Assembly: GCA_028554795.2 (NCBI GenBank)
Contig: CM068832.1
Coordinates: 84,008,049-84,072,048, forward strand
Direction: 5' to 3'
Source: Sinohyriopsis cumingii
Lineage: Eukaryota; Mollusca; Bivalvia; Unionida; Unionidae
DNA: 64,000 nucleotides
The notes below the pieces were generated by a model that was given only the letters and a program-made list of their open reading frames with translations, ran no database searches and was not told where the DNA came from. Each line of letters opens with the position of its first letter. Within the stretch, counting starts at the first letter, position 1. Positions 3,304 through 61,479 of this stretch are shown in pieces. Both the position numbers and the translations under genes were made by a program.

Positions 3304-5094
3304 ACTTGACTTTCCTGTATACTGGTATGTAATAATGTTTACACCAATGATCAAACCTCACCACCCCAACATTGCCTTAAACTTTATGATACATAGTCTA
3401 CCTGATTAGTTATTTAACTTGTAAATGGCTAAATGTGCTTCTAGAAACCTCATATACTTTTAGGATGAATTTAACACTTTAATACATGGCCATTGCTTCA
3501 CATTTCTGAGTGTCACTCTGTCAAGTTTAATATTTTCTCCCATGCTTGCAACCTTAATGTTAATTTGAAATCACCATATCTAACACATTTTAACTTCATT
3601 TACATAGATCTTACTGTTTTCTAGAATTAAGTGAAACATATTGTATCTTTTCAGGTCTAACCTGGTATCTGGAACAAAGTGTTAGAGTTGGATCAGCTTG
3701 GAAGCTCTCCTGAGTAGTCTGGTGGTAATAGCATGGTTTCATAAGGGCATGTGCACTGTACTGCCATAAGTGACCAAGATTAGTTCATATCACCACACTG
3801 ATATATGGCACCTCAAAGACATGGCTTAGGTTTTCATGAGAGAGATCAGCACCATTTTTCAGTAAAGTAGAACCTCCCTAGAAACTATTTTCCTATCCCA
3901 TTGCCACCTTTTGTTGTTATCGACATTGAAATGGAATGCATTTTTGCTATAAAACATGGTAGTGGTCCCATTAGAACTTTAAATCTGAATGTGCTATTAG
4001 TTATGGAAACAACTGCCTAAGTACCTGACACAATAAATGTGGAACATAGCACCTGTCAGTGTTTCTTTAGTGTGTACACCTATATGCATCTGGACAGGCA
4101 TATTGCGGTTTGCTGCCAAAATCACTATGAGCTATGATGCTTCACTAACCCTGGGGAAAATGTTATCAGTTATACAGACCCAAACTACCATTTGTTTTAA
4201 ATATCATTCATTAGTCAACTTTTCTGTCTAAAATTTGTCAAACTGTGTTTTAAAACTTGTATGAAAATTTAAGTTTTCAATAAAATTTAGTTTTTAAAAT
4301 TTAAATGTTTATTTAATTTGCCATTAAAACTGAATTTATCAACATTTGTAACTTTCAAACATATTTTCAGACAGGGCTTATCTTGTATCACAATTAGGTT
4401 TTTACTGCATTGAAAAATTCCTATAATTAAGGAAGAGATAGCAAATTTAGTTTTGGTTTCTCAAGAGCACTTGGACCAGAACTTGCACCCTGTGGAACAC
4501 CAGCACTACATACTTTCTGACAGGTGTCACATGTTTTCCTTGCAAGGAAATTCAAAAAGACTTCATGTATAAAGTTGAAATAGGTATAGCATGCAAATAT
4601 AAAAGTTTGACTAAAATTGGCGTAAAACATGGAGCCTGTCAGGAATTACATCACAATTAATACTTCCAGTTCAGTACCCACGAATGTAGTTCTAGTCTAT
4701 TTTTAGAACATTTTTTCCTCTCTCATTTTGATGGTGATAGAAGAGTTTTATTTATGCATTTTTGGTAGGGATTTAAAGGTAACTGTTTATTCTTGATAAT
4801 ATGAGCTCAGGGTGTTGTTGTCTGTATGTATTTTGGCGACAGTGCACAGTGAGTAATAAGGCCTTGGTGATGATCTGGAAGTGAAATACGTGTTCTGGTT
4901 ACATGCTGTTATGTTGACAGTCAATGATCTAAAAAAAGAGCAGGTCAACCTTTGACAAGAACTTCACCGTGAAGTCATCTTTGAAGGTATTTTAGATTAA
5001 CATATGATTTGCATTGATTGTCACACAGTGGAAAGGTCAGTACTGAGAAACAAATGTAGAGAACATATAGTAAAATTAATTGTGTACTATGTCC
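3237..5094. repeat. Direct repeat, copy 2 (3,236-bp period)
   Basis: Near-identical second copy of 1-1858, ending at GTCC 5091-5094. After this point the sequence is unrelated to what follows copy 1, so the second unit of the tandem duplication is partial or has been interrupted. Confidence 0.9.
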
Positions 5095-6722: not shown

Positions 6723-7524
6723 CTTTAAAATATGAGTTTTGTCAATACTAAGTAAAGGAAAATCATACTGAAGAAATGTTTTTGTTAATACAGTTTAATG
6801 GATCTAAAAAATCTCTTTCTTCTGCAGGAGTTTAAAATGTTAAATTAAAAAGGTCATGGTACACATTGCTTTGTTTGTACACATCAGGCTCCGTAACCCA
6901 TATCCAACTAAAAATTTTAGTAGAGTCTGAATAAAACATATTTTAATCTGGATGATAATATTCTTTCTCCATTCATATATTACACCACCAAGATTGATCC
7001 AAATAAGATTACATTTTACTATAACACTGAGGATGAGTATGCCTCTTAACAACTGACAAATGTGGAGAGAATGGAGTTAAACTGAACTTTGATTTCTTTT
7101 CAACCATAGCACAAGATGATCATTTATTATGAAAAAACCTGAATAAAGTTGGAGTTCATAACCATGACAGTCTTGATATAATATAAATTCAATATATTAT
7201 TGTTGTCTTGAGGTATAGTTCTGTATATTACAATTTCACACAAGATCAGGGTATATTTTAGTACCATACAGTTAATTCGGGATTGTATTAATACCTATTC
7301 TGGTGAATGAACATTAAATAAGATTTACTATTTTGGAACCAGTTGCAATAAAGTTTACTAAACAAGAGAAAATATGACTTTACTATAATATCTAAAATGT
7401 AAAATCTGCAAACAGAATACTTGCTTGACTTTACACTTCAATTATTTATTTGAAATAAATTTATACAAATGGCATTAAATTGGGTTTCAGGCTGGTAATG
7501 ACAATGGTAGTAGTGAATAGGGAC
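6723..7524. other. Intergenic DNA, no gene seen
   Basis: AT-rich. The minus-strand ORF at 6840-7052 has no motif and no promoter or splice context. Nothing else supported. Confidence 0.5.
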
Positions 7525-7745
7525 AGTCTAGGGACTAGGGAACTTCCATGTTAAAAAGGGTATATCCACTCTGGGGACTATGTAATTTAACATGGGAGAA
7601 AAAAAAATATCCATTCTAGGGACAAGGGGAATTTAACATGGGAGAAAGAAAAAAAACTATTCACTCTAGGGACAAGGGAAATTGAACATGGGGAATAAAT
7701 CGTGGGACTGTCTTGGGACTAGGGGAAATGGAACAGGGTTGGGAC
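7525..7745. repeat. Degenerate minisatellite, about 48-bp units, five copies
   Basis: The core CTNGGGACWAGGGGAA...AACATGGGGAA recurs at about 7528, 7570, 7616, 7666 and 7712, with purine-rich spacers. It lies just outside the virus-like gene block and may be the subterminal repeat of that element, which is inference. Confidence 0.6.
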
Positions 7746-7864: not shown

Positions 7865-7925
7865 AGGCAATTGAAAGTCAAGATCTTTTCGAGAGATAGG
7901 AATGGCCCTGAAAAGGGCCTTTGGT
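7865..7925 (+). repeat. Inverted repeat arm flanking the divergent gene pair (left)
   Basis: About 58 bp starting GGCAATTGAAAGTC and reaching GGCCCTGAAAAGGGCC. It matches the reverse complement of 8982-9042 at roughly 85%. The match covers the histone-type stem-loop, the spacer and purine element beyond it, and 14 bp more. The two 3' ends of the gene pair therefore share a duplicated 3'-processing cassette. Confidence 0.85.
7884..7925 (-). promoter_or_regulatory. Histone-mRNA-type 3' stem-loop and downstream element (minus strand)
   Basis: Read on the minus strand, ACCAAA is followed by GGCCCTTTTCAGGGCC (7919-7904): a 6-bp stem with a UUUC loop, identical to a standard metazoan histone-mRNA 3' stem-loop including the CCAAA flank bound by SLBP. 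Seven bases later comes TCTCTCGAAAAGA, a purine-rich block where the U7-binding histone downstream element normally lies. It starts about 12 nt after the TAA of the minus-strand ORF at 7932. Function is inferred from sequence alone. Confidence 0.8.
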
Positions 7926-7931
7926 TTTATG

Positions 7932-8177
7932 TTAATATACCCTTAACATAAAGGGCATCTGTGACATCTTCTTCTTGACCTTAGGCTGCGCCTGACTGCA
8001 GGACCATAGATTAAGACTCTTTTGAGGCATCCTTGATACTCCACATAAGATTCTTCGCATCCACAGGCTGGTGTCTGTCCTGTGGATAACTGTCCAGTTG
8101 GATCGGACATACATTGGTATGTCCGTCCGGAACATCATCGAAGACACAAGCGTTGAAGATTGTACGTGGATCCACAT
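7932..8177 (-). pseudogene. Left gene of the divergent pair, unknown product, probably decayed
   Basis: The 81-codon ORF begins with an ATG (8177-8175) about 45 bp downstream of a TATAAATA box on the same strand and ends 12 nt before the histone-type stem-loop. Its composition is not convincing. A second minus-strand frame over the same DNA, lacking an ATG and broken by two TAA codons each one C-to-T change from CAA, looks more protein-like: acidic, with an FNACVFDD-type stretch near the start and GQEEDVTDALY near the end. I therefore read the locus as a frameshifted or stop-damaged small gene of about 90 codons. No core-histone sequence is present in any frame. Product unknown. Confidence 0.45.
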
Positions 8178-8396
8178 GTTGGGGTGCTGAGTAACAGTGA
8201 AGGAATGCAGTGAACTGTACTTATTTATAGGGAGAGGAAGGACTGAAACGGATTGAGTTTGTTGACCAATCCAAACACGCGTTACAAAATTCAGTCAGCC
8301 CACGTCCAATCCGAAGAGAGCAGTCTGTGACGTCACATAGTCTATATAGATTCGCTAGCGCCTGTGCGCAGTCAATCTAAGCGACAGTTTTTCAAC
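8178..8396. promoter_or_regulatory. Bidirectional promoter of the divergent gene pair
   Basis: A minus-strand TATA box (CTATAAATAAG, 8231-8221) serves the left gene, and a plus-strand TATATAGA (about 8343-8350) serves the right gene. Between them are two CCAAT boxes (8266-8270, 8306-8310) and a perfect CRE, TGACGTCA (8328-8335). TATA plus CCAAT boxes in about 220 bp between divergent genes is the layout of animal replication-dependent histone gene pairs and also of compact DNA viruses. Confidence 0.7.
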
Positions 8397-8965
8397 ATGA
8401 AGGAAACTCAGAAAACGATCAGTTGGGGTGCACTGATGGTGGAGACTACCCAAGGGAACCCAGACTTACTTTCAGAAGAGGTGAATTGGGATTTTGTGGA
8501 TTTTTTTACCTTGCAAGAATTTGTTCCTGAACCTTCGTCACCTTCTCCTTCATTACCGCACATGGAAAATGTTAGACAGAGACAGAAAGAAGAATTGGAG
8601 AAATTTATACAACAGCAAAAGGAAGCGGAACAAGCTTTTCTCCTACAGCAACAGCAGCAAGAAGAAGAGGTAAGAAAAAACAACAACAAGAAGAAGCAGC
8701 AGCAAAGAAACAAGGGTGTCAAAATCAAATGGTCACGGTACTGTTAGACATTTTAGCGGAGTTAAGAAGTCTGAAACAAATGTATCAGACTTCTTTATTA
8801 CGGCTGAAGAGAATACGACCTTCCCGAGCTAAACACTCCAAGCCTGTGACTACGCCTACCGCACCACCCTTAGTGATTTCAACGAAATCATCATCAACAG
8901 TACGCAGTCCAGAATTAGGCCTTGGCCGTGGCAAAGGCTTAAGACAGTTAAAGTTAATTGCTTAA
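8397..8965 (+). pseudogene. Right gene of the divergent pair, Q/E-rich coiled-coil protein, one frameshift
   Basis: An ATG at 8364 lies only about 15 bp after the TATA box, so the next ATG at 8397 is the better start. The first frame gives an acidic N-terminus, a Pro/Ser stretch, then a strong Gln/Glu coiled coil (8580-8680). It runs out at a stop at 8745. A second frame is open through the same Q/E/K region and continues as a hydrophobic heptad segment (ILAELRSLKQMY) and a basic, Gly-rich tail ending LGLGRGKG...LIA at TAA 8963. The frame change falls in the CAA/GAA/CAG repeats (about 8660-8710), where slippage is expected. One protein of about 190 residues is likely. The stop lies 22 nt before the histone-type stem-loop. 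Family unknown; a small basic virion or DNA-binding protein is possible but unproven. Confidence 0.5.
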
Positions 8966-8980
8966 ACTCACCCCTTACAC

Positions 8981-9027
8981 CAAAAAAGGCCCTTTTCAGG
9001 GCCATCCACGTCTCTCGAAAAGAGATA
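8981..9027 (+). promoter_or_regulatory. Histone-mRNA-type 3' stem-loop and downstream element (plus strand)
   Basis: ACACCAAAAAA precedes GGCCCTTTTCAGGGCC (8988-9003): 6-bp stem, UUUC loop. After a 7-base spacer comes TCTCTCGAAAAGA, at the same spacing as on the other gene. It begins 22 nt after the TAA at 8963-8965, the usual distance for replication-dependent histone mRNAs. No AATAAA lies between the stop and the loop. Confidence 0.8.
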
Positions 9028-9042
9028 GACTTTCAATTGCCA
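8982..9042 (-). repeat. Inverted repeat arm flanking the divergent gene pair (right)
   Basis: Reverse complement of 7865-7925, ending GACTTTCAATTGCC at 9029-9042. The homology extends past the stem-loop and purine element, so the arms look like copies of one 3'-end module rather than two independently evolved signals. Confidence 0.85.
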
Positions 9043-9297
9043 ATAACTAAAAAGAATCATTTTACCCAATAGTACCTGTCTGTGTATGAGTGTGCGTGAG
9101 TGTAGGTTCTTATTTTAAAATCAAAACCCAAAGACACTTACCTTTTATAATTAATTTATTCTTTTATAAATATTTACAATTCACAATTCACAACAGAGCA
9201 CTTTAAAAAGTTCATAGACTTATTCTGTCTCATTGTTCACTCTCTGTTTTTTTAATTTCTTCACCGTCATAGTCTTTTCCTCCTCTTCCTCCTCACT

Positions 9298-9676
9298 TTA
9301 TTCCCTTCTTTTCTTCTTCTGTTTCTTTTTCTTCACCTGTCTGTTTTCTTCCTCTTCTTCTTCCTCTTCCTCTGAAGAATCCCTCTCTTCTTCTGACTCC
9401 TCTTGTTTCTTTTTTGGGCAGTCTGGTGACCAATGTCCTTTTTCTTGACAATAATAACAGGTATCTTGACTTTTGTCTCTTCTAACCCCTTTTTTTTCTT
9501 TTTTGACGGTCTGGACACTCTGAAGACCAATGCCCTTTCTTCTGACAGATATAGCAAGTATCTTGACTTTTATCTTGAAAGGAAGGAGAGTAGTCCCTCG
9601 GCTGGTCTGAAGAGAATTTTCTAATGACCCCTCGCAAAGCTCTGATGAAACGTTCGATCTTGGTAGTCTCTTCCAT
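9298..9676 (-). pseudogene. Tandem CCHC zinc-knuckle protein, one frameshift
   Basis: A minus-strand TATATAAAGG (about 9739-9730) makes the ATG at 9676 a better start than the upstream one at 9724, which lies almost at the TATA box. The product has a short N-terminal helix region and two CX2CX4HX4C knuckles. Knuckle 1 (CYICQKKGHWSSEC) is near 9576-9535, and knuckle 2 (CYYCQEKGHWSPDC) near 9461-9420; each is preceded by the same DKSQDT segment, so they arose by internal duplication. A long Glu-rich then Lys-rich tail ends at TAA 9298-9300. A one-base length change in the A/T homopolymers at 9488-9503 shifts the frame between the knuckles. CCHC knuckles of this type bind single-stranded nucleic acid. 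An AATAAA lies on the minus strand near 9157, so this gene probably uses ordinary polyadenylation. Confidence 0.65.
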
Positions 9677-9809
9677 CGTTGTGCTCAGTTTGAGAGTGAA
9701 ATGAATAGTGAAAGGACAAGACACATACCCTTTATATACGCTGGTCTGCTATGACTATAAATTAGTCCATGGTGTTTAAACTTTAGTCATTTGACTTTTT
9801 GCTATCGAG
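9677..9809. promoter_or_regulatory. Divergent promoter between zinc-knuckle and polymerase genes
   Basis: TATATAAAGG on the minus strand (about 9739-9730) and CTATAAATTA on the plus strand (about 9755-9764) each lie about 50 bp upstream of an ATG (9676 minus, 9810 plus). This repeats the architecture of the 8178-8396 promoter. Confidence 0.6.
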
Positions 9810-12800
9810 ATGAAATGATCCAATTCATTTGAGAAGAAAGAAGAAGAAAATAAGAGGCAGAAACGTGATCTATCGCCTCGTACCAGGGCTGAAGTCTTGG
9901 CACAAATTCATGCCAGTGATTTTGAAGAGGACATGAGTGAACCAGAATCCAAACCCTCTAAACAAAGTTTACCACCCTTAGTCAACTCTGAATAGTACTA
10001 TGACATTCGAGAGACGGAAAAGCGTCCCTCTAGAAAATTTAGAACTACGGCTTACAAATACACAGTGAAGTTTAAAGATTTCAAGTCTGAAGTACTGTTA
10101 GAGAAAGCAGAAGGGTTCATCACCAACATGTGGGATTCTTTGCTCACCACACTCAAGCGACAATGTCAACCCAAAGAAGATGATCGCTTGAGACTTTCCA
10201 TACAACATGACGGCTTGAAATCCCCTGTTTGGATCGAATTTCAACACGTGCAACAATCTAATGACCAGTTTGACATCACCGATGGAAAAGCCACACTGGA
10301 CATGACCCACGTCTCTCCTCCTCAAGGGACCGGACAATGCAGAAAGACCTTATTGGTCAACAACCTTCGCATTACCAAAACAAGTCTTGTCCAGATTAAC
10401 AATTTTCAAGACCACATGTGTTTAGCCCGAGCCATCGTGGTGGGATGAACCTATGCCGACAAGAACGACACGGTAGAATGGAAAAGAGCCTGGGAGAACA
10501 TTCGAAAATCGAACCGAGCCAAACAACGAAATGAAGCAGAACTTCTGTTACAACAAGCATGCCTGTCCAAAGACACATCCTGTGGCATTCCTGAGATGCA
10601 AAAATTGCAAGATGCCCTAGCTCCACGATACACCTTGAAAGTGCACCCTCAAGAAGTGCGCGGGTCTCTGTTGTTTCGAGGGAAAGACTTTAAGGATGGA
10701 AAATACATTCACCTCTATCATCACGATGACCATTTCGATACCATTACCACTATCACTGGATTCCTGGGATACAAATATTACTGTGAGAAATGTGACTTAT
10801 GATGGTTATAATAATCGAGAGCAACACAAACATTGTGGATCGAAATGCTCAGAATGTTTGGCCTCTCAACCCTGTCTGAGCGAAGGGCAAGAACCAGTGC
10901 ATTGTCCTGCTTGTCTGCGCACATTTGTCAGCCCTGCCTGTTACCAACAACATCTGAAGATGCAAGGTTCACAGAAGAAATGTGCTTGTCAACTCCTGAG
11001 ATTGTGCCCAATGTGTGGACAAGGTCTATGTATCAACAGTACCAAGGCACACGTATGTTCAAGAAAGAAAAAATGTCACATTTGTCACTGCATCGTGGAC
11101 TTGGAACACCAATGCTACATGCAAAAATACCAATCCCAACCAGAGAAAGAGGATGGTCACAAGAAGAAGAAAGGCAATTTCATCTTTTTCGATTTCGAAT
11201 GCATGCAAGAGACCGGTATTCACATTCCTAATTTCTGTGTGTCTCATCGAGCGTGCGAGAAGTGATTCAAGAACTTATCTTGAGTTATTGCCCTCACTGC
11301 AGTAAGATTCCTGGAGGGCGTGAAAAAATCTTTCAAGGACCGAACACACTAGCCGATTTCACACAATGGGTCTTAGACCCCATCGACAAGACGTGGAGCC
11401 AAGAGGACATCGAACATTATTATGGAGAATGTCATCACCATGCCACGGTGATGGCTGATAATTTCTCCGGATACGATGGACAGTTTCTTTTGAGATGCTA
11501 TACGGAACGTGGCACTGAGCGTCCTAAAGTCACTTTGAACGGAGCCAAAATCATTTTCTTGCAAGTGGGACAAGTGCAGTTTAAAGATTCGATGAGCTAC
11601 TTAGCCATGCCTTTGAGTCGAATGCCTAAAATGTTTGGAATGACAGAAATGGCTAAAGGGTACTTTCCACACTTTTTCAATACAGAAGCCAATCAACACG
11701 CCGGTCTACCCCATTTGCCTCAGGCTCACTATTACGACCCTGACAACATGCGTACCGAACGAGAAACTTTCTATGCTTGGTACCAGGCTCACGCCTCGGA
11801 CCGTTTCGACTTTCAGGAAGAAATGCTAAAGTATCGTCATTCCGACGTGGACATTTTACGGCGATGCTGTGGAAAATTTCGAGAACTGTTCATGGAACAC
11901 GGAGGGGTTGATCCTTTGAAAGAAGCTTGCACCATTGCCAAAGTGTGTTCCTTAGTCTACCGACAACGATTCATGCTTGAAAACACTGTGGCTGTCATCA
12001 GTCCTCAAATGACCAACTATGTCAAACGTCAATACTCGGTCAAAGCCCCATGCTGGTTGCATTACTTGTGCGACAAGGAAGACAAATGGATTCAGCATGC
12101 CTGCAACGGACAGGGCGAAAAGATCATCGGAATGCATTCGGTCGATGGCTGGGACTTAGAAAACCCCAAGATCATGTACGAGTTTAACGGTTGCTTATTT
12201 CACGGATGTCCCGTCTGTTACCCTGACCGCGGCACTAAAAATCAGTTCTTACAACGAACCATGGAAGACTTGTACCAGGCCATTTGTCAGCGACGCCTAA
12301 AGTTAGAACAGGAAGGATACCAAGTGATGGAAATGTGGGAACACAAATACGATCACCGTTTGAACACCGATCCCGAGTTTAAACGCCTCATGGAAAGTTA
12401 CCAGTTCATGGACCCCCTGAACCCGAGGGATAGTTTGTACGGAGGAAGGACCAATGCCACCTGTTTGCTGTACCAAGCTGATGAAGAGAAAGGAGAAGAA
12501 ATCAAATACTTGGACGTGTGTTCACTGTATCCCTACAAGTGCAAATATTATTGCTTTCCTGCAGGGCACCCACAATTGTTCACCGAACACATCGACCTAA
12601 AAAACATTCGACACTACGAAGGCTTGATCAAGTGCAAAGTTTTGCCTCCCACGAACCTATACCATCCCGTCTTACCTCGCCATTGCCAAGGCAAACTTAT
12701 CTTTCCTTTGTGCTGTACTTGTGCTGAAACGTGCAACCAAGATCAACCTTGTCATCACACCCAGGAAGAACGGGCCTTGATGGGGACATGGGTCAGCATA

Positions 12801-13808
12801 GAATTGTTCAAAGCTCTGAACATGGGATACCAACTGTTAGAAGTGTACGAAATTTGCCACTTTCCCAAGACACAATAATTCCACAAGGGTGACCCCACGC
12901 AGAAAGGCATTTTCGCAGACTACGTGGATGCCTTTTTGAAACTGAAGCAAGAAGCCAGTGGCTATCTGTCCTGGTGTCACACTCCCGAAGACCAAAAGAC
13001 ATTCAGAGAGAAATTCTGGGCACAAGAAGGCATTACTTTAGATCACATTGAGAAAAACGAAGGCAGGCGATCGTTTGCCAAAGTGATGTTAAATTGCTTG
13101 TGGGGTAAAATGGCACAATGACCGTGTTTACCCAAGACGGAGTATTTGACCGAACCTTCCCGCTACTTTCAGATGATTCACGACAAAGCCAAATTCATGA
13201 AACACGTGGACGTCGTTCGTGAGGATTTGATCTTGGTGAATTACGAAGAAGATCTGAACTTTGTAGAAGATGACCCCTTTGGAAATGTCATCATTGCAGC
13301 TTACATGACAGCTCATGCTCGCTTAAAATTGTACGAATCTTTAGAACTGTTAGGGGAACGTGTCTTGTACTTTGACATGGACAGTTGCATTTATATCGAT
13401 CACCCGAGTCAACAGCACCCTGACATCGAAGGAGACCGTTTAGGAGCCTGGACAGACGAGCACCCCGATGACAAGATTCTAAGTTTCGTCAGTGGTGGTC
13501 CCAAAAATTACGGCTATGAATACTGGGACAAACAAGAAGTGCACACGAAGTGTAAAGTGAAAGGACTTACTCTGAATTATCGTACCAGTCGAGTGGTCAA
13601 CTTTGATGTATTGAAAGAAGCCTTGCAGTCTAGAGAAAGTGACCACCTATCAACCCAACAAGATTGTACGTTTACCCACACACCACATCGTCAGTCGACC
13701 CTTGGAAAAAGTCTATCAAATCGTGTAGCAGAAGCGAGTGCGGCTTCCCACCCACTTTACTTTGCCGTATGGACATGTCGGTATAAAACATTGGTTGTAA
13801 GAGGATAG
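9810..13808 (+). pseudogene. Protein-primed family B DNA polymerase (Polinton/adintovirus type), broken
   Basis: This is a DNA_pol_B_2-type polymerase. Going along the gene there is a basic N-terminal region; a Cys/His-rich zone (10785-11130); Exo I FDFE (11191-11199); Exo II DNFSGYD (about 11456-11476), where His is expected but Asp is seen; Exo III YRHSDVD (11832-11852); a GGRTNA block; motif A DVCSLYP (12513-12533); motif B K..LNC.WGK (13081-13107); and motif C FDMDS (13371-13385) instead of the usual DTDS. Breaks: in-frame stops at 9816, 9993, 10446, 12876 and 13119, and frame changes near 10790-10802 and 11245-11265. The same frame resumes after each stop, so these are lesions rather than exon ends. 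Each stop is one C-to-T change from CGA, CAA or CAG. The family replicates linear DNA with a terminal protein primer. No integrase, packaging ATPase, protease or capsid gene is seen nearby. Confidence 0.9.
13782..13788 (+). promoter_or_regulatory. TATA box of the BIR gene
   Basis: TATAAAA lies inside the 3' end of the polymerase reading frame, 36 bp before the BIR ATG. It is preserved in the right arm (about 61500-61506, minus strand). It suggests the BIR gene is transcribed independently of the broken polymerase. Confidence 0.5.
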
Positions 13809-13823
13809 CCACCCACCAGAAGG

Positions 13824-14294
13824 ATGACTTCGCCACAGCAAGAATCGAGTGAGAAATCCAGTGAGAACTCCAAGTTCAAACCCTACCATTTTCCAGTCTT
13901 CTTACCTGACTATTGTGATTGTGCCCGTCGATTGGACCTGTTTCAAAAATGGCCTACGGATAGGGAAGGATTACCTTCTTCGTATGTTTTAGCTAGAACA
14001 GGATTTGTCTACTTCGGACCTGAGTCAGGATTGGGATACGAAGTACAGTGTTTCGCTTGCGGACTGAAGTTACGAATGGATCTATGTATCTACAAAGATT
14101 CAGCTATTCTGGAACATACTCGATGGTCTCCGCACTGCCCTTACCTTTCAATGGCCTTTCCACCCATTAAACTACGGTACAATTATGACGGTACCTTAGA
14201 GACGGTACCTTCCAAAACTAGACGTAAACACATTGCATCCTATTTCATTGTTGTTTCTTTTCCACATAATAGCTTATTTTTTATAAAATGTTAA
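13824..14294 (+). CDS. Single-BIR (IAP-like) protein
   Basis: Intact 156-codon ORF starting 15 bp after the polymerase stop. Residues about 25-110 form one BIR domain: an R-LD-F--WP start, GFVYFGP, then CFAC...H-TRWSPHC, giving the C-x2-C-x18-H-x6-C zinc site (usual H spacing is 16, so the loop is slightly longer). There is no RING, CARD or second BIR. The last 25 residues are hydrophobic and may be accidental coding past the original end. BIR proteins bind caspases or IAP antagonists and block apoptosis; insect and molluscan DNA viruses carry such genes. The right-arm copy differs at only two residues, both outside the zinc ligands, so this frame survives while the neighbouring polymerase does not. 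Host capture or domestication is possible but unproven. Confidence 0.8.
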   Translation: MTSPQQESSEKSSENSKFKPYHFPVFLPDYCDCARRLDLFQKWPTDREGLPSSYVLARTGFVYFGPESGLGYEVQCFACGLKLRMDLCIYKDSAILEHTRWSPHCPYLSMAFPPIKLRYNYDGTLETVPSKTRRKHIASYFIVVSFPHNSLFFIKC

Positions 14295-14817
14295 ACTTTA
14301 CTAATCTTTTTTCAAGATCACTTTAGTTTGCAAAAATATATCTTGTCATTTATTGGCATTCTACATTGAATTTTGTAAACTAGCTATAAACCTGACCTAA
14401 TTACTCAACTTAACTGCTGACAGAAACAGTCTACAGTAAATGTATTTCATTTCTATAGCTCGATGGATAAACATTACATCTTTTAAAGCTGTGCACAGAA
14501 TAGGCCGACATATCACAAGTCAGGAAAACATGGGGGTGGTATCCCCTGTGTCCAAAATTAATATCATTTTGAATAGAATATTCTAGTGACAATTGCCTCT
14601 TTTCAAATGGTAAGCATTGCTTTTTTTATTTTCGTCAATCTGTCAAATTCGGTATGCATTTTGCTTTAATATTTGAGATGGAAACCTTAGGTGCATAGAA
14701 ATGTCAGACAGCATTGTACATCATGGATGGTGTCCAACATACTTTTATGATCATAAAACAAAATCCCATTGTTTTAGTTATGGCCACTGATTTAAAAAAT
14801 ATTCATCCAAGCTAAAT
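14295..14817. other. 3' flank of the BIR gene, no gene seen
   Basis: No clear AATAAA is found close to the stop. The flank is part of the mobile block: a diverged copy of it lies in reverse at 41686-41890, and the right-arm copy is at 60471-60993. Confidence 0.6.
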
Positions 14818-16337
14818 ATAATAATAATAATAATGAGGACTTTGTATAGCACCTAATCTTTAGAAGCTCTAAGCGCTTTGCAACATTAGACAACATAAAA
14901 ACATACACAATGATATGATTACAAAAACAAACACCGTGAAATTAGAAAACATAAAAAACATGCTGAGAATATTTAAGGTAGTTAACATTATTAAGTCATT
15001 AAGTTTGTTTTTGCAGTCAGAATAAGTAGTTTTGAGAGCACCCTTGAATGGGATCACTGCGTCTTTGTGTCTAAGTTCAGTGGGCAATTCATTCCATGTT
15101 GCTGGGCCCTGGTATGCAAAAGAATGCTGTCCATGTGACTCTGTTTTCATAGTGAGAATAATGAGTATATGATTGTCGGAAGAGGAGTGTAAGTATCTTG
15201 CTTGTGTGTACACATAGGTGAGGTCGGATAGGTATGTTGGACTAGAGTCTGTCAGTGAAACGTAGCACAGAGAACTAATGTTGTGTTTGATTCTGGATCG
15301 AATGGATAGCCAATGTTGGGTACAGAGCAGCGGGGAGGTGTGCTCTGATTGTGGTACTCTAAGTATGATCCAAGCAGCTATGTTTTGAACTTTTTGAAGT
15401 TTCTGCAGTAGATATTAAGATGAACCAGACAGAATTGAGTTACCATAGTCCAGTCTTGAAAGTAGTAATGAACACACAAGTGTTTTAGTGGCATCAACTG
15501 AAAGATATCTGAGAATGGAACTGATGCGTCTCAGCTCAAGATATGCAGCCTTGCATATGTTCATGACATGTTGGTGCAATGTGAGAGTACTGTCCAGAGT
15601 AACACCTAGGTTTTGTACTGATTGTGTGATTTTAATGTTGGTGTTGCTGATATTTATTGTGTGAGGTAAAGGATGTGAATGAGAAAGTCTTTGTGTTGTA
15701 ATCAGAATGGCCTCAGTTTTATCATCATTCATCTGCAGCTTGTTACAAGTCATCCATGATTTCACATCAGAAATGCACATCTCTACACCTTGGATGGTAG
15801 CATCAACTTCAGTTGGGTGGCTAGATTTGTATATTTGGGTGTCATCAGTGTACAATTGGTGAGACACTGGATGATGATCTATGACACTTGAGAGCAGCTG
15901 AGTGTATAGAGTGTAGAGAAAAGGTCCAAGAACAGACCCCTGTGCAACACCACAACATAGATCAACTGGGCTGGAGTGTAATCTATTTGCAGACACAATT
16001 TGTGTCCTGTGGCAAGGGCGATATGCAGATTGTACATTGCTAAAAAGACTGTTTGAATTCAGACAAGATGCAAGCTGGGATTGAACAACCTTTTGTAAGA
16101 TTTTTTATATGAATTGGAGATTAGAAACCGGGCAGTAGTTCTTTAAATCCTTATGGTGTAGTGTTAGTTTCTTCAGCAGAGGTTTTACAATGGGAGTTTT
16201 GAAAAATGATGGAAATTACGCTGATGAGAGAGAGGTATTAATAACATCAGTTAGTGAAGGCAATACTGGATCTAAGCACTCAAGCAGCAGTAATGTTGGA
16301 ATTGGATCAAGTTCACATGACTTTGGTGCACTCTAGG
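14818..16337 (-). mobile_element. L2/CR1-clade LINE fragment (5'-truncated, broken)
   Basis: Read on the minus strand. Reverse-transcriptase pieces are at 15996-15415, including GVAQGSVLGPFLYTLY and LYTDDTQIYK (the YxDD active site), then the thumb and connection part. At 15213-14869 is the C-terminal GPATWNELPTELR...FK.ALKT block typical of this clade. The 3' UTR ends in an AGCGCTTAGAGCTTCTAAAGA-type segment and an (ATT)n tail at 14833-14818. Stops and frameshifts break the ORF, and the 5' end is truncated near 16337. Confidence 0.85.
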
Positions 16338-16739
16338 ATGATTACTTAAAAATGCATTTATTGGTGGTGAGAGACTAAATACATGACTTGATACTTGTGT
16401 TTAGCATTAATTGGAAAGCTGAAGATTAGTAATCTTTTGACATACATATCTTAATTGTACCATTTAATTTACAAAATTCAGTGTAATTTGCATTGGTAAA
16501 ATGTGTAGCACAAGAAAAGTCATTATGAATCAGAGATAAATCATATCTTTGTTTTGTCTGGAGCTTGACTAATTTATTGCACATTTCTGTACACTATTTT
16601 GTCTTTAATCCAGGATTATTCACTGCATTCGGATGCATTTCATGGTGAAAATTCACCAGCTGGATTTAAAAGTGGTGAATATTGCTAGCGATTGTTCTGC
16701 AAACCCTGTATGTCACAAGGAGTCAGTGTATTCAAGGAC
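16338..16739. other. Intergenic or intronic DNA, no feature seen
   Basis: It lies between the truncated LINE and the first plausible exon of the DUF4806-like gene. No motif recognised; earlier exons may be hidden here. Confidence 0.4.
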
Positions 16740-19700
16740 TCATACAGTATTTACAAGTTCTCATTGACATATCAGATGAAAATGAAGAACTGAAAAAAGA
16801 TGAAAGTCTCAAGTGGAAACCTTTCTGGTCAGCCATCTCATCCAAAACCTCCTGAAATGGAGAGTATTTTGCAGACTCCAAGATTTCCTCTTATCCTGCT
16901 GGTATGTTCTATTTAGTTTATCTGGTCTCTTTTTATTTTTTATCAATTGCTTTTATACCATGCCACAATTGGAAATTCTTTATCAAAAGTATGTATAAAT
17001 TTCATCATTTTTCTGTCTGTTTAATAAGATGTGTTTAAGAGTACTTACTTACTCATGATGCTTTATATATGAGATTAGATGTTTTGTTAAAAAAGAATGC
17101 ATTTTGTGATATATTGTATCACTGCTTTATATACAGTGGTCATTGCAACCAGTATGCATTTTGTTTACATGCCAAAAAATCCAGTCTGATTTCTTTGTTT
17201 CTTTTTTACTGCAATTAAGGAGTAGTGATAATCTTTATACTCTTAGCTGCATCCAGAAGGACAACACCATCACCATCCCCATCCACTCTGGAGTGGAGAA
17301 TATAAAGATTTCTCCCTGCCAGTTCCTCTGCAAGTAGTAAGTATTGAGGATGGAAAAAAAATGTACATTATATAATAATGAAACAAATACTACAGGTGTT
17401 GACTTTTATATAATCTCTTATTTCATTTACAGCTCTCTAAATACGAGTAGGTCAATTATACACTGTATTTATGAATTTAATTCTCATCTAAGGTAGTAGA
17501 ACTGTTTTATGTTTGACAAAATGTTGGGTAAGTTGTGGCCATACACTAAAAACACATTTTGTAGCATTTAAAAATGCTTATGTTCAATGCACGTAAAACT
17601 CATTGGTTTGTTGTCACTTCAGTTGATAATAGTCTTGTCATCTTGTAGACATTTTGAATGTTAGTGTTCAATGCTAAGGTCATATACATTGATTCAACAT
17701 CAAAATTTGTTTGCAAAATGGAAGATTATGACATGAAAGCACAAGCTCTTGTAGCTTAGATACTGTTATTTCAGAACATTGTGAGATGTTAATTAATTAA
17801 ATTATAGGTCATAAAACATACTGTTCAAGACTTATTTGTGCAAATAAACAATGAATTGTTTTTCATTGATGTGTCGACTGTTCATCATTCCATTGGTTTT
17901 TTTTATTTTTCTTTCTGATGTATACCATTGTCTTGTGTAAGTCAGACGCCTAAACCATCTACATTGAATGCAGACTTTACAGACACCAGCAGTGAAACAA
18001 CATATCCAGGGAATAAAAAAATAAAGGATTATGTGAAAAGTTTTCATATAAACTGTACAAAAACCATGTATTTCATTCCATAAATATATTTCATTGTTAA
18101 ACCCATGTTCACTGTACAGATCTTTTTAAGGAGTTTATAATAATGATCTTGATCTTTCAAAACTAATTTCATCACAAATCTATTACAGATTTCCAGTTCA
18201 ATGTACTTATGAAACTGGACACAAATATTGAGAATTTGTTGGAGCAGCTGGCCCTCCAAGTTCATACACAAGGCCCAGCCACAGAATATAGAGAAGAAAT
18301 TCTTGCAATGCCATGTGATTCAGTGGAGGAACTAGAGGGCCTTTGCCAGAGGTTGGAGGAGAATCCCAAACTCTCCAAGAAGATGGTAAATTGGGGCTTT
18401 ATTTTCTATTTAAAAAAACTGTTATAACCTTTATTTGCTGTTGTGAACCTCAATATGCATTATGCAAGTTCTGCAGTGCCTGTATAATTATTTTTGGGGG
18501 TGGGGTGAACATGTAGTGGTCGGCTGTTTTGTCTTACGGATGTAGGCCAAAACATGTTTAGAGATGAACATGTAACAGGTATTTTACTACATATACACTA
18601 TTACATATTATGTGGCTACTTTAATTCAATCCTTGAGTGAATGTCATTTATGAAGTTAATAGATTCACGGTGGTTAATTTGGTTTATAATTGCTATTAGT
18701 ACATTGTGTTGCATAGTTAATGTTATCAAATTTTTTTCAAGTTAGAGAAATTAAATTTGCTTGCAAAACCATGGCAAAAAGTAACTATATACAAGCATAT
18801 TTTGTCACATCGATCATGAAATACTACTACTAATAATAATATCAAAATCAAAAAATAGTAATATTATTATTATTATTATTTTCAGATATGCTACTTGAGC
18901 TCCCTTGGCAGGTTTACAATTGGGGATAGTGTCTGCGGATGATGAAAAAGCTTAAAACAAAAAGACTGGCCAGAGTATAGTCCAAAGGGACGTAAAGGGA
19001 AAAAAGCATTTCAAGAGCTTGTGATATGTCAGGTTTTGATAAGTAAGTATGGCTTGATTTAAATTGTGTTTTTCATGTGACTTGCCAGAGATTTTTAAAT
19101 GAATTGATAAAGTAACTTGAGACCACATTTCAAAGTACATGTTTTAAAAATATTCCATTGATTATTGCTGGCATTTAGAAAAATGCAATGCATCCTTTGT
19201 TGTGAAACTTTTTTAAAACATTGTATTACTCTTGCAGAAGCCTGCTTGAAAACTAATGGCAAAGCAAAGGCAAATGGAATGGAAGAGACCATATCAGAGA
19301 CCCTCAAATATGCACCCAACCAACGCAGAATGATAAAAAACAAGGTAATCCAAATGACTCTTATTTCATCAATATTGGATTCAGTTTCGTCTTTTAAAGC
19401 ATAGTATTTGCAAAGCGGATGCATTTCTAAACTGATAACAAAATCAGCTTATCCTATTGCCCAGGACTATCAAAGCTAGAGTCCAGCTAACTACAATATG
19501 CATATATCTTGTCTGATTGGACAAGTGCCTCCATTTGGAATTTTTATTCACATGAAATATTTGGATGAAATAAATTCATCTTTGTGCAAATTGATTGCAC
19601 CATCCACTTGCCAGAAATGATAAGTAAGTGCAAAGTTATCTTGTATCATGGCTTAACGATAGTAAGGGAAGCACAAGTGCAGTGAAGAAAATTTCATACA

Positions 19701-19890
19701 TTTTTATAATGCTGATTAACATGACTTCTGCATATGTAACTAGTGCTGAGATGATATGACTTTATTTAAGCATTACAATTTTGTTTTAATTTGCAGGTGC
19801 CTGAGCAGAAGAAGTAATAGATAAACTTTACAGTGGAGTTGGAGACTGATTCTGATTCATAATCTTAATTAAATCTAGAAAATAAACATT
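16740..19890 (+). pseudogene. DUF4806-domain protein gene, multi-exon, two in-frame TGA codons
   Basis: Exons with matching phases are: A about 16775-16901 (Pro-rich, donor GTATGT); B 17247-17336 (ends LPVPLQV, donor GTAAGT); C 18197-18385 (FNVLMKLDTNIENLLEQL...LAMPCDSVEELEGL, donor GTAAAT); D 18886-19042 (SSLGRFTIGDS...KGRKGKKAFQEL, donor GTAAGT); E 19238-19344; and F 19797-19817 ending TAA, with AATAAA at 19881-19886. Exons C and D show the DUF4806 pattern: a leading helix, a LP-----EEL--L segment, a G-----D-V step, then W----GKKAF. Exon D holds TGATGA (18940-18945) in frame, so this copy is likely dead unless those codons are read through. The domain occurs in many invertebrate proteins of unknown function. 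Most of the gene is deleted in the right arm. Confidence 0.6.
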
Positions 19891-20530
19891 AAAGTCATAT
19901 TAAAATATCTGTTGTATTGTTTCCTTCTTTCATTTTTCTCTTAAAAACAAATGTCTGAACCTTTAGTCTGTAAATTCAGTGGATTCCTTATCAGCCCATC
20001 TACTTTTACTTTACACCATGCTACTTTAAAAAAAAAATGAATTATCCCCATTGGGGTAGGTCCCCCCAACCCCCCACCCTACTTTGTCAACTTACCTGCC
20101 ACATTTAAATCTAATGGAAGGCCCTGCTGTAAAGCCTGTTAGTAAAACTATCCAACAAGAGGATTTCATACATTTGCAACTCCTAGGTGGATGGTAATGT
20201 TTTCATTTTTGTAATGTAGATTTGGACATTCTTGCCACCAGTATGGAATATGTGTTTCAGAAACACAAGCAGCTTTCATCAGATTTGCATATAGGTTTTA
20301 TATGTTGTGAGTATGTTGTAGGAAGTTTTTTTAAATAACATCATATGAGATGATGCCAGTGGAAATGGCAGAAAAGTGTCTGTATTGTTCACCAACTACA
20401 CCTTGTTCTTACGAAATGTGGCTGTTACACATTCCCATGATGATGTCACTGACAGCCGTCAGTGAGGAATGCCCCAACAAGCATAATACAAATTGCTTCC
20501 ATTGTAATTGTTACAATTCCATTCTGACCA
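19891..20530. other. Intergenic DNA, no gene seen
   Basis: Contains poly-A/poly-C runs near 20029-20085. The ORF at 20350-20544 runs into the SINE and exists in both arms only because of the duplication. Confidence 0.5.
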
Positions 20531-20850
20531 CTCCGGTGTCCTAGTGGTTAGAGCGTCCGCCTCAGAAGCGGGAGGTCATGGGTTCAAACCCCAGCCAAGT
20601 CATACCAAAGACTTACAAAAATGGTATTAACAGCTACCTCGCTAGACGCTCAGCATTAAGAGGTTAGTGTTAGGACTGATCGGCCTGGTGTCAGGATAAT
20701 GTGACTGGGTGCAACATCATACTACATGTTTGCAGCATGATGCCCCAGTGCTATACATCACTATAAACTGCCACACTGCAGACATCGTAGCAATATGACT
20801 GAAAAATTATTCAAGCTACGTTAAAAATCCAATCACACACACACAATTCC
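20531..20850 (+). mobile_element. tRNA-derived SINE
   Basis: The tRNA-like head has an A box TAGTGGTTAGAGC, an anticodon-like arm CCGCCTCAGAAGCGG (loop reading CAG, Leu-like) and a B box GGGTTCAAACCCC. A body of about 230 bp follows (TGATCGGCCTGGTGTCAGGA, CACTATAAACTGCCACACTG), and the end is TTAAAAATCCAATCACACACA. Related copies lie at 46300-46355, 49590-49830 and 57783-58104, which defines a local SINE family. Confidence 0.8.
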
Positions 20851-22189
20851 ATTCTACGATCCAGAACCAACACTAATTCCGTATTACAGTTCTTGCATTT
20901 CAATCCAATTTTGCTTTTGAAATGTAGTGCCACTCAATTCATAATGAACCCATTCATTTCAAACACTCGCAAATACATATTATTCCTGTCTACAACTGAA
21001 AAATATCTATATAAAAAAACGTGTAACTGTGTTTTATGCAAGGGCATGGAGATGCACAAAAACTTGCACCTGAAGCTTGAATAAATCCCCGACTGTGGAT
21101 AAGACTTTACCCATCGATTACCCCAGCGTGGCGATAAATTCCGACCGTGGCGATTTATTATATATCCTATGACTGCTCCAGCTTGAGGGCAAAATCCAAG
21201 CACATCCCTAAAAAGATAACAAGTATAGCGGCTCTTTACCTTCTGTAAATGCCACTTGAGCTTCCTGATGCTGTTGTATCTGCCATTTGACAGAATCACG
21301 AATGTGGATATATTTCTTAATTGCCTCTAGTTGTTGAGTTAGTTTAGCTGTATGAAATTCCTTTGTGCAGACTCACTCATTATTAATATTACAACAGTGA
21401 TTTAATTACACATTACCTGTCAGCACACCGATGATAAGTCAGTTATTTTATAACACACCAACAAGCTTGCCCCTTGCACCCACCCACCCCCCCTTTTTTT
21501 TTTATTTGGGCACCTGTGGACATGAATCTGCAAGGCTCAAATTGTCATTTTTAATATAAGATCTCAACATTTTTAAGGCCTTAATTTTAAAGACATCCTT
21601 AAAACCCCCAAAAGGTTATCAACTGGATCACCAGCCTTCGTTTAGAGTAACAGCAAGTATATATATATATATATATTTAGGTCTAAGGAAACACAATAAA
21701 AATGTTTGATTTAACAATGACACATTTGCCTCAGGTCTGTGATCCTGAAGTGAATATTAACTGTCCATTTATTTTCTTGGCTTTTCTTTACTAGGAAATT
21801 GATTATAGAGATTTCTGCGAAGGTGAAGGCAATGTAAAAATTGGTTACTATAACATACTTTTTACGCCATGTTTGAAAAAATAAATCCAATGGAAAGGTT
21901 ATAGTCTGAAAATCTTCATTAAATTAAGTTAATATAGGGGAAAAAACTTTAAGAGTTCATAAATATTTTTCAGTGCTGAATAAAGATATAACATAACACT
22001 TTCTGCTGTGATTTTAATAGTTTCTGAGAGCATGAAAAATTTCTAGAACTATAATGTATAAATGTTTTCAAAAGATTATATTAATATGAGGGAAAAATCT
22101 GTTATGAAATAAACCGACAAGATCTTGTATGAATTCATGTTATCTTTAAATATGATATTTGTGTGAAAATATCTGGAAGCAAAAACAAG
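20851..22189. other. Intergenic DNA, no gene seen
   Basis: Holds a C8/T-rich run at about 21488-21502 and a short (TA)n at 21658-21676. Short ORFs (20893-21084, 20934-21299) lack motifs. Confidence 0.5.
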
Positions 22190-22660
22190 ATGGTGCCACT
22201 CACACATACAATGTGGTTGCCACAGTAGCCATATTAAGAAACTTCTTATCGCTACTTCTGAATGGATAATTGTGTCAGCGTGTCAACATGTGTACAAAAT
22301 ACTTATGTTGATGTCTAGCAGGTCCTGAATGAGAATTATGGTGCTGTACAGACATCCTATAAGGCCACCAATGTGGCCATCCTGAAAATCTTGTTATAAC
22401 TACTTCTCCTGAATGAATCGTCATATCAGTGAAAGACTTCTTATGTCTAGTTGGACGTAAATGAAAATAGTGCCAATCTAACCTCCAATATGGCTGTTTT
22501 AATGGGCATCTGGAAAACCCCTTCCTTGCTACTTCTCCTAGATGGCTGGTCATTTTGACATTGTGCTTTCACTAGATGACCTATTTGATGTCTGGTTGGC
22601 CGTAAATGGAACTATGCATATGGTTTTGATGTCTAGTTGGTCCTAAATGTGGTTTTTGCT
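22190..22660 (-). repeat. Tandem repeat, about 120-150-bp units
   Basis: Three to four diverged units contain GATGTCTAGTTGGTCCTAAATG (about 22310, 22440, 22590, 22630), a GGCCACCAATATGGCCAT block and CTACTTCTCCTGAATGA. The 92-codon minus-strand ORF at 22275-22553 is a translation of these units, with its repeated H--P-RH-KSF pattern arising from the DNA repeat. Confidence 0.6.
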
Positions 22661-24740
22661 GCTCATAAACTTCTAATGGTATTATAGTTGGTTCCTTAAT
22701 GAAACTGCTGTACAAAATTAAAAGGCCTTATGATTTTCTATCAAGTTGGATACAATTATCTTTACCAGCTAGGATTTCTTGATCCTCTTTTTTATACATC
22801 AACCCTTCGCATATGTAGTTAGCTAAAACAGTATTTTGAACAATTAATTGCCCTCTTGCAAATAAAATCCCAATTGCATGCTTTTACCAGTGTGAGAGCT
22901 CCTTATATAAGTAGCTAAGTATTCAGTAACTGAATTTCCACATCCACATGCATCAACTCAGAATTAAAAGTTGCAAAACATATACAAATTTAAAAATCTT
23001 GAGACGTGTCACTTTGCATGGTGGGTGTTATGATTTAAATGCAACAAGGAAATTGAATTAGGGTTAATTTCTTTAAGCTGTATTCAATCATGGGGCCCTG
23101 GATTATAGAATGGTCTAGGCATATACATCACTAATCAACTCTCTCTAGTCCAACCAATGTGTGTATATGGGAAAGCTTGCCAGTAGCGTTATGTGTGTTG
23201 ATTTCTTCCAATAAATATGTTGGCTGCCATGTAAAGTCTATGATGTCCTGAAAAATGGTGTTAAGCTCCATACAAGCAAGCTAAACAATCAATGATATAA
23301 TGGAACAGTAAACACCATTTTAGCTAAATATGCCAAGAATTGATTTAGAGACTTGGTTAGTGATGATGACTTAAAATTGGCAAGGGATTAAAAAGATAAA
23401 AGAAATGACCTTTCATGGCACTGTAATATAACAAATGAGGAAAAACAAAAGTTTATTGCATTTGAACCTTTTGTTTTTTCACAGTTTCAATTTAAGTCAT
23501 AAGGCCCCTTATTTTGCCTTACCAAACATATAGCAAGTTATTACCTCAAACCCTAGCACTAATAATGCCTCACAAGTAAGCAGTCTTTTATGAAGTCTCA
23601 GGTCTGAGTATATGTCTAGCAATACTTATGTCCAGTTTGTTTATAAAATTCTTTCTCACATGGTACAGTTTTTAGAGAGACACGATAAATTCAACAAGTG
23701 TGGTAATGAAGGGACAGGCATTCTTTATTTATGCACACATCCCAAAGGGACATTGCTATGTTTGAATCAACACTGAACTGAAGAATGGAGCATCAGTTGC
23801 ATCAATTAAAATATTGTGGCCCACACAAAATACTGCAAGGACTATAATCAATTTATGAGTGCAATGGGCATGAATTACTGTAGCAGACTGGAGGAAGTAA
23901 TCCGAATTTATTAGTATCTTGAAGCTAAATATAGTAAAGTTTTCATCTATAATCTGTGGAATCGTTTTTGCACACAGTTTGCAGGATTTGTCTTTGGGTC
24001 ATCGTTTTTCTTTTTCTTCATCTTTCTAGATAATGGTATCTTGATAAGTCTTATGGTGCCGTGCAACTGCACTTGATGATTACCACAACCAGTGACATTG
24101 TATCAAATCTTCTGGGATCAGATGATTCAATGCAAATTCCACATAACCTATCACCATCCTCATGTTTGCCATCTGACTTACTAAGTTATTTTGCCTAAAT
24201 AATAATAAAAACAATCTGGTCTGATGTATTGATAGCGTTCTGAATGACCATAATATATTATCTGTATCTACCCTAGAAAATCCTGAGTGGATCGCTGTTT
24301 GGTTTTAATAAACCAAAGTAATCCAATGAAAGGCATTTTACAGACACAAGTGTCTGTTTCCTGTATGCAGTGATTAAATGATAGTATTATGTCTTTATTT
24401 TTTTAAAACTGATGATACATATGATCACCTTCAATGTGCAATATTAGTTATGTTAATTAACGAGTGTGCAATATTTGAATTTCAAAGATAAAAGTGTATG
24501 CCATGATCACTTTAGTAGGATGATTTGTCAAGTGAGGTTATCTTTTCTGTTTGAATAAATATTGTTAACTAAACTATTTTCGCAAGTTATGACATAAGAA
24601 TGATTCAAAGAAAGAAAATTCATTAAATTGAACATATAAAATGTAATACTGCAACAGAGTCTAGATGAACTATTTCTTCAGAGACACAATCCAGACTCTG
24701 TGGCAGCAAAATTATCAAATAGGACACAACTAAGAGACAA
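22661..24740. other. Intergenic DNA, no gene seen
   Basis: AT-rich with no ORF of protein-like composition. A short open stretch at about 23680-23775 (plus) is shared with the right arm but not recognised. Confidence 0.5.
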
Positions 24741-24965
24741 TCACATTTTCAGTCACAATGGTTTGACAATTATCAATGGCTTGAATTCATTGACTGTGAA
24801 GGCAAAGTGATTTGCAGTTACTGCAAAAAAAGTTCCCAAACTGTCACAGATTTTAAATTCTACCAGTGGACTTGTAAGTGTAACTGACAAATTCAGGATT
24901 TAATCAAGCAAGTCTCATGATAGTATTATACCTAATAAAGCAAAATGTAGCACAGTATATTCATG
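24741..24965 (+). pseudogene. BED/TTF-type zinc-finger remnant of a hAT-like transposase or ZMYM-like gene
   Basis: The plus frame from 24750 to about 24905 reads WFDNYQWLEFIDCEGKVICSYC, an aromatic-rich segment followed by CxxC as in the N-terminal TTF/BED fingers of hAT transposases and DUF4371 proteins. Further on, in another frame (about 24885-24950), SSKSHDS resembles the His pair of the same finger. Stops and a frame change show it is dead. No DDE or dimerisation domain was found downstream. Confidence 0.4.
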
Positions 24966-27287: not shown

Positions 27288-27680
27288 TTGACAACCATTT
27301 TGCGCGCGCACACCGGAAAGTCATGCTATATATTTGTTACTTGTAAACGTATTCGTGGGCAGTACGCTATATATTGTTCCCGGTGCCGTATTCGCGGGCA
27401 GAATGCTATATGTTTGTTCTTCGTGAACGTATTTTTGGGCAGTGACTTTGTCATCTTCAACCTAAAGGTCAAAACTGCCCATGAAATTTATATATCTGCC
27501 CACGAACCGAAAACATGAATAGGACTATAACATAAGTGTATATACTTATTTTCAACATATACATAATTACTATGTAAGAAATACAACCTATGTATATGTA
27601 TTTTGATTTGAAATGTAAACTATATCATGTCCTTCCCGTAAACCCACTTTCGGGATGACTGCCCACAACGCACCTAAAAC

Positions 27681-27683
<3 letters not shown>
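27288..27683. repeat. Short GGGCAG-containing repeats next to the arm boundary
   Basis: Three units of about 40-46 bp with GCTATAT...TGTT...CGTATTCGTGGGCAG lie at 27322-27445. A further GGGCAGT copy in opposite orientation precedes the (TA)n tract. The 76-codon ORF here is a translation of these repeats. Confidence 0.5.

Positions 27684-27761
<78 letters not shown>
27684..27761. repeat. (TA)n tract at the inner end of the left arm
   Basis: About 39 TA units. Sequence to the left is mirrored in the right arm and sequence to the right is not, so the arm boundary falls in the tract. Confidence 0.95.

Positions 27762-50878: not shown

Positions 50879-50956
<78 letters not shown>
50879..50956. 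repeat. (TA)n tract at the inner end of the right arm
   Basis: About 39 TA units, the same length as the left boundary tract. The mirrored sequence starts immediately after it (CACGTTTTAGGTGCG). Confidence 0.95.
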
Positions 50957-50959
<3 letters not shown>

Positions 50960-53675: not shown

Positions 53676-53900
53676 CATGAATATACTGTGCTACATTTTG
53701 CTTTATTAGGTATAATACTATCATGAGACTTGCTTGATTAAATCCTGAATTTGTCAGTTACACTTACAAGTCCACTGGTAGAATTTAAAATCTGTGACAG
53801 TTTGGGAACTTTTTTTGCAGTAACTGCAAATCACTTTGCCTTCACAGTCAATGAATTCAAGCCATTGATAATTGTCAAACCATTGTGACTGAAAATGTGA
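53676..53900 (-). pseudogene. BED/TTF-type zinc-finger remnant, right-arm copy
   Basis: Mirror of 24741-24965, with the same WFDNYQWLEF...CSYC frame on the minus strand and the same lesions. Confidence 0.4.
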
Positions 53901-61464: not shown

Positions 61465-61479
61465 CCTTCTGGTGGGTGG

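Follow-up and report, generated by a model that had tools for sequence, protein, structure and literature searches.

In the 64-kb window (the whole stretch of Sinohyriopsis cumingii DNA that was analysed, 64,000 nucleotides), two small divergent genes, here called A and B, lie beside genes of a virus-like element, and each of the two ends in a stem-loop and a purine element of the histone mRNA type. The features are:

7884-7896, minus strand: U7-type purine element of gene A, with AAAAGA starting 14 nt 3' of the stem (assigned from the sequence and from the spacing in relatives)
7904-7919, minus strand: histone-type stem-loop of gene A, 12 nt past the stop (RF00032, 33.5 bits over 7924-7879)
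7932-8177, minus strand: gene A, the minus gene of the pair, an 81-aa ORF in the window copy
8178-8396, no strand: divergent promoter region, with two CCAAT boxes (8266, 8306), TGACGTCA (8328) and TATA on both strands (8222-8229 minus; 8343 plus)
8397-8965, plus strand: gene B, the plus gene of the pair, frame-broken in the window copy
8988-9003, plus strand: histone-type stem-loop of gene B, 22 nt past the stop (RF00032, 35.2 bits over 8983-9028)
9011-9023, plus strand: U7-type purine element of gene B, with AAAAGA starting 14 nt 3' of the stem (assigned from the sequence and from the spacing in relatives)
9482-9724, minus strand: zinc-knuckle ORF of the element (Pfam zf-CCHC, 29.8 bits), with AATAAA at 9155-9160 minus
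10065-13808, plus strand: PolB region, fragmented (Pfam match to DNA_pol_B_2 at 11253-12878, 110 bits)
13824-14294, plus strand: BIR-domain ORF of the element (Pfam BIR, 47.1 bits)
50879-64000, minus strand: second, inverted copy of the element, running off the window, with its own gene pair and both loops just beyond it (L117)

The first-pass annotation had described histone-type stem-loops with their flanks at both gene ends, each followed by the same purine block 7 nt after the stem and lying 12-22 nt from the stop codon, and all of this was borne out. The 16-mer of the two stem-loops, GGCCCTTTTCAGGGCC, has exactly two exact occurrences in the 64 kb, 7904-7919 (-) and 8988-9003 (+), and no other site with up to three mismatches exists in the window. 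In dinucleotide shuffles of the window it occurs 0.08 times on average, and none of 100 shuffles reaches two occurrences. The block TCTCTCGAAAAGA is identical in both genes, and the distance from stop to stem is 22 nt on the plus strand and 12 nt on the minus strand. The covariance search with the Rfam histone model RF00032 (Histone3) that had been proposed matched both loops, that of gene B standing above the gathering score of 34 and that of gene A half a bit below it. Furthermore, the 3' regions of genes A and B form 57-nt arms that are 88% complementary. Their seven mismatches are located between the stem and the purine block and just after the block, a clustering that is not significant (p 0.096).

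The histone-like divergent promoter of that annotation was likewise confirmed, with CCAAT and TATA boxes and the TGACGTCA site between the genes. Matches to CCAAT, TGACG-type and TATA motifs, which are short and were counted without a shuffled control, are found in 18 of 18 A-B intergenic regions. As for the pair itself, its layout and 3' ends stand, but the plus gene is frame-broken in the window and the minus ORF has changed frame compared with its relatives. Of 30 young copies of gene A from the host genome, 27 have an open frame of 80-81 aa, and the stop lies 12 nt before the stem in every young copy with a recognised stem. Older relatives encode an Arg/Cys-rich protein of 76 aa; the young family, that of the window, shifts frame midway. 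Codon scoring of the minus gene singled out no frame (best 4.6; 90th percentile of control stretches 5.4). A frame of this gene containing HVDPRT was considered and dropped (RNY in 31 of 82 codons, no homologue, and a different frame order in relatives).

In 15 of the 30 sister copies, gene B has an open frame of 189 aa. It has five database relatives, three of which are of 193-199 aa and show 71, 58 and 58% identity; the C-terminal frame of the window gene is 79% identical to one database homologue over 102 residues. The protein combines an acidic N-terminus with a long predicted helix, and the structure predicted for P0121, which was used for gene B, has a mean pLDDT of 70, a single long helix (53-136) and a pTM of 0.29. 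Its C-terminus, GLGRGKGLRQLKLIA (window about 8918-8962), looks similar to the H4 N-terminal tail motif. In agreement with the claim that the pair encodes no core histone, Pfam gives no histone match on the ORFs of genes A and B.

The neighbouring genes had been read as a zinc-knuckle protein, a PolB and a BIR protein. All three are recognised by Pfam, but the PolB consists of several open pieces within its region. The N-terminal ORF at 10065-10448 is tentatively attributed to PolB; P0125 links the N-terminus of gene B with the family of this ORF. PolB has homologues in various animals including oysters, and several of its closest named relatives come from oysters. Open PolB frames of up to 1360 aa exist elsewhere in the host genome. 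The repeated unit spans from left of window position 5094 to a TA repeat near 27761, its right end. The stretches 11282-27761 and 50879-64000 are inverted copies of one element of more than 20 kb, 98-99% identical, 23 kb apart and with TA-repeat ends. Two LTR-like direct repeats of 455 bp (1404-1858 and 4640-5094) flank an insertion that is common to L101, L107 and L109 and missing at that place in L103 and L105. A LINE-like reverse-transcriptase ORF is located inside the element (15415-15996) and has an 84% identical relative at 42514-43685, between the element copies.

Capsid, protease, ATPase and TBP queries gave no tblastn hit at E 0.01 in the window and in L101-L147 (266,744 bases), a search of low sensitivity since the queries were single and distant and most loci cover only 3 kb. 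No rve integrase was found in the window, and an rve-like ORF adjoins gene A in L146 at 29.6 bits, below the cut-off of 32.6. As to the proposed virus-like block, the polymerase is of the viral type (DNA_pol_B_2, 110 bits). The copy in the window has decayed, and the search just described detected no capsid gene in the vicinity of the copies. For these two reasons, we do not file the window element as a bona fide, intact Polinton.

The element is present in many copies. In the 2.9-Gb host genome, at least 40 places match the 66-nt 3' end of gene B exactly (40 of 481 first-look candidates were scored). For 28 of these 40 exact loops, a PolB match lies on the same strand at a distance of no more than 5 kb, counting the 80 best PolB matches out of 35,617 first-look candidates. 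Thirty young loci, all picked by an exact match to the gene B 3' end and all carrying the pair region, show a mean pairwise difference of 0.8-2.0% in 12 of 14 intervals, of 0 in the interval selected on and of 3.6% in the last. A few of the 30 carry deletions, and the stem or loop of gene A is altered in seven. With a divergence of only about 1-2%, most of the sequence of these copies is common by descent. This, together with the altered gene A loops, fits a scenario in which an ancestral element acquired a histone 3' end accidentally and its loops have since been copied along as inert relics. At G000 C10:39.2-41.1 Mb of the host genome, PolB was also observed twelve times in one orientation, at a spacing of about 154-186 kb, which suggests a large tandem segmental duplication carrying the element.

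The search of the host genome with RF00032 yielded 75 scored matches, all above the cut-off, out of 589,472 first-look candidates; its control matched in one of 14 genomes, with a score below the cut-off. The 30 best of the 75 scored loci belong to the element and not to host histones. Their main loops score 43.5-45.6 bits, and since these loci (L118-L147) were selected on the Histone3 score, they are biased toward good loops. According to tblastn with the low-complexity filter off, the gene 5' of the main loop is A at 15 loci, B at 3, C1 at 7 and C2 at 5, C1 and C2 being two lysine/glutamate-rich coiled-coil genes. A second loop is found within the 3-kb stretch at 26 of the 30 loci. The 27 partner loops follow B (12), A (4) and C1 (1); for the other 10, located upstream of C1 or C2, tblastn gave no gene. 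In all eight of those that were inspected, the loop comes after an acidic gene, D, and most of the eight share a C-terminus of the RRCVCGARPGRC type. In 9 of 10 gene D loops, an A-U pair replaces the basal G-C pair, both sides having changed. Histone-type loops recur in this way after four small non-histone genes (A-D); the genes scanned with Pfam, A, B, C1 and C2, gave no histone match. Linkage to PolB was seen for the young family, the C and D stretches being too short to show whether PolB adjoins them. In the older loci L120, L127, L128 and L147, similarity to the window extends as far as 10421-10475, inside the ORF that precedes PolB. A G-rich repeated tract containing GGGACAAGGGG, at 7520-7740 of the window, recurs 3' of A and C loops in relatives.

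For comparison, the one host H4 gene whose 3' end was scored (L148) has a Histone3 match of 37.7 bits and AAAAGA 14 nt past the stem. Of 57 element loops, 53 carry AAAAGA in the 30 nt that follow the stem, in each case at 14 nt, versus 4.2% of random 30-mers from the same loci. By sampling, AAAAGA stands at 14 nt in 26 of the 27 partner loops and in 27 of the 30 loops selected on their score. The first-pass annotation had named relatives that lack the loops and use AATAAA as evidence against its reading. The loops are instead kept in relatives and AATAAA is not gained: it occurs within 150 nt 3' of the stem in 5 of the 57 loops versus a background of 13.3%, without enrichment.

The histone-like appearance of the loops and of the divergent promoter could also mean that the element captured a host histone cluster or a histone-derived gene, so that these would be the 3' ends of plain histone genes. 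Loops unique to this locus and coming from a captured histone cluster were the other finding that had been held to speak against the annotation, and they were not what the genome contained. The plus-gene 3' end has too many exact copies near PolB matches to be a captured histone fragment, and the best Histone3 loci are element genes that gave no histone match. Moreover, host H4 (114 matches) forms arrays with a spacing of about 8.27-8.29 kb, mostly on small contigs away from the element loci, and the main element loops score higher than the one host H4 loop scored. Capture of a histone gene is accordingly mostly refuted already, and we regard it as hardly tenable.

Twelve diverged gene B loops that entered the set as partners only, and were not picked as best-scoring, reveal which parts of the 3' end are constrained. 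Pairwise difference is 10.4% in the coding end and 2.1% in the 3' UTR leader, 3.1% in the stem-loop, 17.3% in the spacer, 2.1% in the purine element and 27.9% further downstream. The conserved stretch extends beyond the purine element, with 8.7% at 37-52 nt. For the proteins, substitutions were counted with a simple method in unbroken frames, using pairs with dS above 0.03. The dN/dS ratio is 0.12 for gene A (8 intact relatives; dN<dS in 28 of 28 pairs), 0.47 for gene B (10 ORFs; 45 of 45 pairs), 0.22 for C2 (3 ORFs; 3 of 3 pairs) and 0.31 for C1 (2 ORFs, one pair). Mean dS is oddly unequal between A (0.71) and B (0.09). At the level of sequence comparison, these ratios show genes A, B and C2 to be under purifying selection. 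Against inert relics stand the selective conservation of loop and purine element around a variable spacer across families, the near-constant place of AAAAGA in the partner loops and the two-sided change of the basal pair in gene D, as well as a separate element with such a 3' end. We therefore consider loops carried along without function to be very improbable.

This separate element, L069 (CALIZB010000033.1), is the one with a histone-type 3' end among four eukaryote-like contigs that the PolB profile matched in GTDB records. Pfam recognises DNA_pol_B_2 (69.7 bits), rve integrase (40.2 bits) and TBP (95.7 bits) in it, and Chromo at 22.6 bits, below its cut-off. A C2H2 zinc-finger ORF is followed by a Histone3 match of 35.8 bits, its stem 28 nt past the stop. 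The purine block lies 14 nt past the stem, the same spacing as in host H4, and AATAAA is found 70 nt past the stem. Two further ORFs are putative capsid and protease genes that gave no supporting Pfam match. The L069 contig belongs to a MAG labelled Bacteroidia, of which it is probably a eukaryotic contamination. The other three contigs gave no Histone3 match on 3.6-8.9 kb, and gene B was not found in GTDB contigs. In IMG/VR, searches with PolB, gene B and the capsid-like ORF of L069 returned no relatives, and no stretch carries the loop-plus-purine pattern. The bare 16-mer is present in 65 viral stretches there, with AAAAGA at 14 nt in none and an AA[AC] 5' flank in eight; a loop with its flank occurs in two stretches, AAAAGA being at the 14-nt place in neither.

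Taken together, these data lead us to a reading to which we give a probability of about 0.77: the small non-histone genes of multi-copy PolB elements carry histone-type 3' ends, and their mRNAs would be cut by the SLBP/U7 machinery of the host and not polyadenylated. The stem-loop would be bound by host SLBP, the GAAAAGA block would pair with the U7 snRNP, and cleavage by the endonuclease between these two sites would leave a stem-loop mRNA without poly(A). Synthesis and translation of such an mRNA would fall mainly into S phase, with degradation once replication stops, and the divergent promoter, with its CCAAT, TATA and TGACG-type sites, may add S-phase transcription. The small genes would thereby be expressed when host replication factors and nucleotides can serve the self-encoded DNA polymerase. 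An SLBP domain search of the host genome found nothing, with an exon-by-exon method that gave no match in control genomes either.

Loop and purine block might instead do another job, in the stability, export or termination of nuclear RNA or as a signal for DNA replication or packaging, and not serve U7-dependent cleavage. The conserved block does run beyond loop and purine element (GACTTTCAATTGCC after the block), and pairing of the downstream region with the 5' end of human U7 was no better than with shuffles (p 0.23, 0.14 and 0.25). However, the spacing equals that of the host H4 gene, and the layout lies on the coding strand, 12-28 nt past the stop in the unbroken genes inspected. Both features count against a DNA packaging signal, which would need neither. 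We judge such another job unlikely, and SLBP/U7-dependent processing remains the preferred reading.

The element genes resemble metazoan replication-dependent histone genes by the stem-loop, the purine element at the H4 spacing, the short 3' UTR and the divergent CCAAT/TATA promoter. They differ in that they encode no histone and lie in dispersed mobile elements, whereas H4 forms arrays. The histone 3'-end pathway is generally regarded as serving replication-dependent histone genes almost exclusively. With Polinton/Maverick elements and adintoviruses, the element shares the DNA_pol_B_2 polymerase, the BIR and zinc-knuckle neighbours and perhaps, in L146, the rve-like ORF by gene A, whose score is below the cut-off. 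Unlike them, the element gave no capsid, protease or ATPase hit near its copies in a tblastn search of low sensitivity, and in the literature searched no histone-type 3' end is reported for this group. More generally, nothing in that literature, mostly at the level of abstracts, describes a histone-type 3' end for a gene of a mobile element or a DNA virus.

Two published systems come near. Loop 27 of potato spindle tuber viroid is a loop of a parasite RNA that was modelled on the SLBP-bound histone loop, and its authors found no SLBP homologue (PMC6827988). Unlike the element loops, it belongs to a plant RNA, has no extended stem and, as described there, is not an mRNA 3' end (PMC6827988). Adomaviruses and adintoviruses carry genes, Histoid and Ziftr, whose theme is histone-like or that of a zinc finger (PMC11071296). 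The looped gene of L069, in an element with PolB and integrase, likewise encodes a C2H2 zinc finger. The likeness reported for Histoid and Ziftr concerns protein similarity only, and the words 'stem-loop' and 'polyadenylation' have no occurrence in that main text (PMC11071296).

With somewhat less assurance, we think it probable that a class of virus-like PolB elements has put a set of small genes on the histone mRNA pathway, with a divergent promoter, SLBP/U7 3' ends and no poly(A), and has kept them there through long divergence. The best-scoring histone-type loops of this genome would then be those of parasites, and the set would be the first non-histone regulon of this pathway run by a mobile element. 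If this is true, it could explain why transcripts of such elements would be overlooked in poly(A)-selected RNA-seq. There is now good reason to screen animal Polintons, adintoviruses and related genomes with RF00032, at little cost. Moreover, a multi-copy element with several non-histone genes would be a natural reporter set for the specificity of SLBP and U7. Judged from sequence, the histone-type 3' ends likely tie the expression of element genes to host DNA replication, which, if true, suggests a way for a nuclear DNA element to time itself to the S phase of its host.
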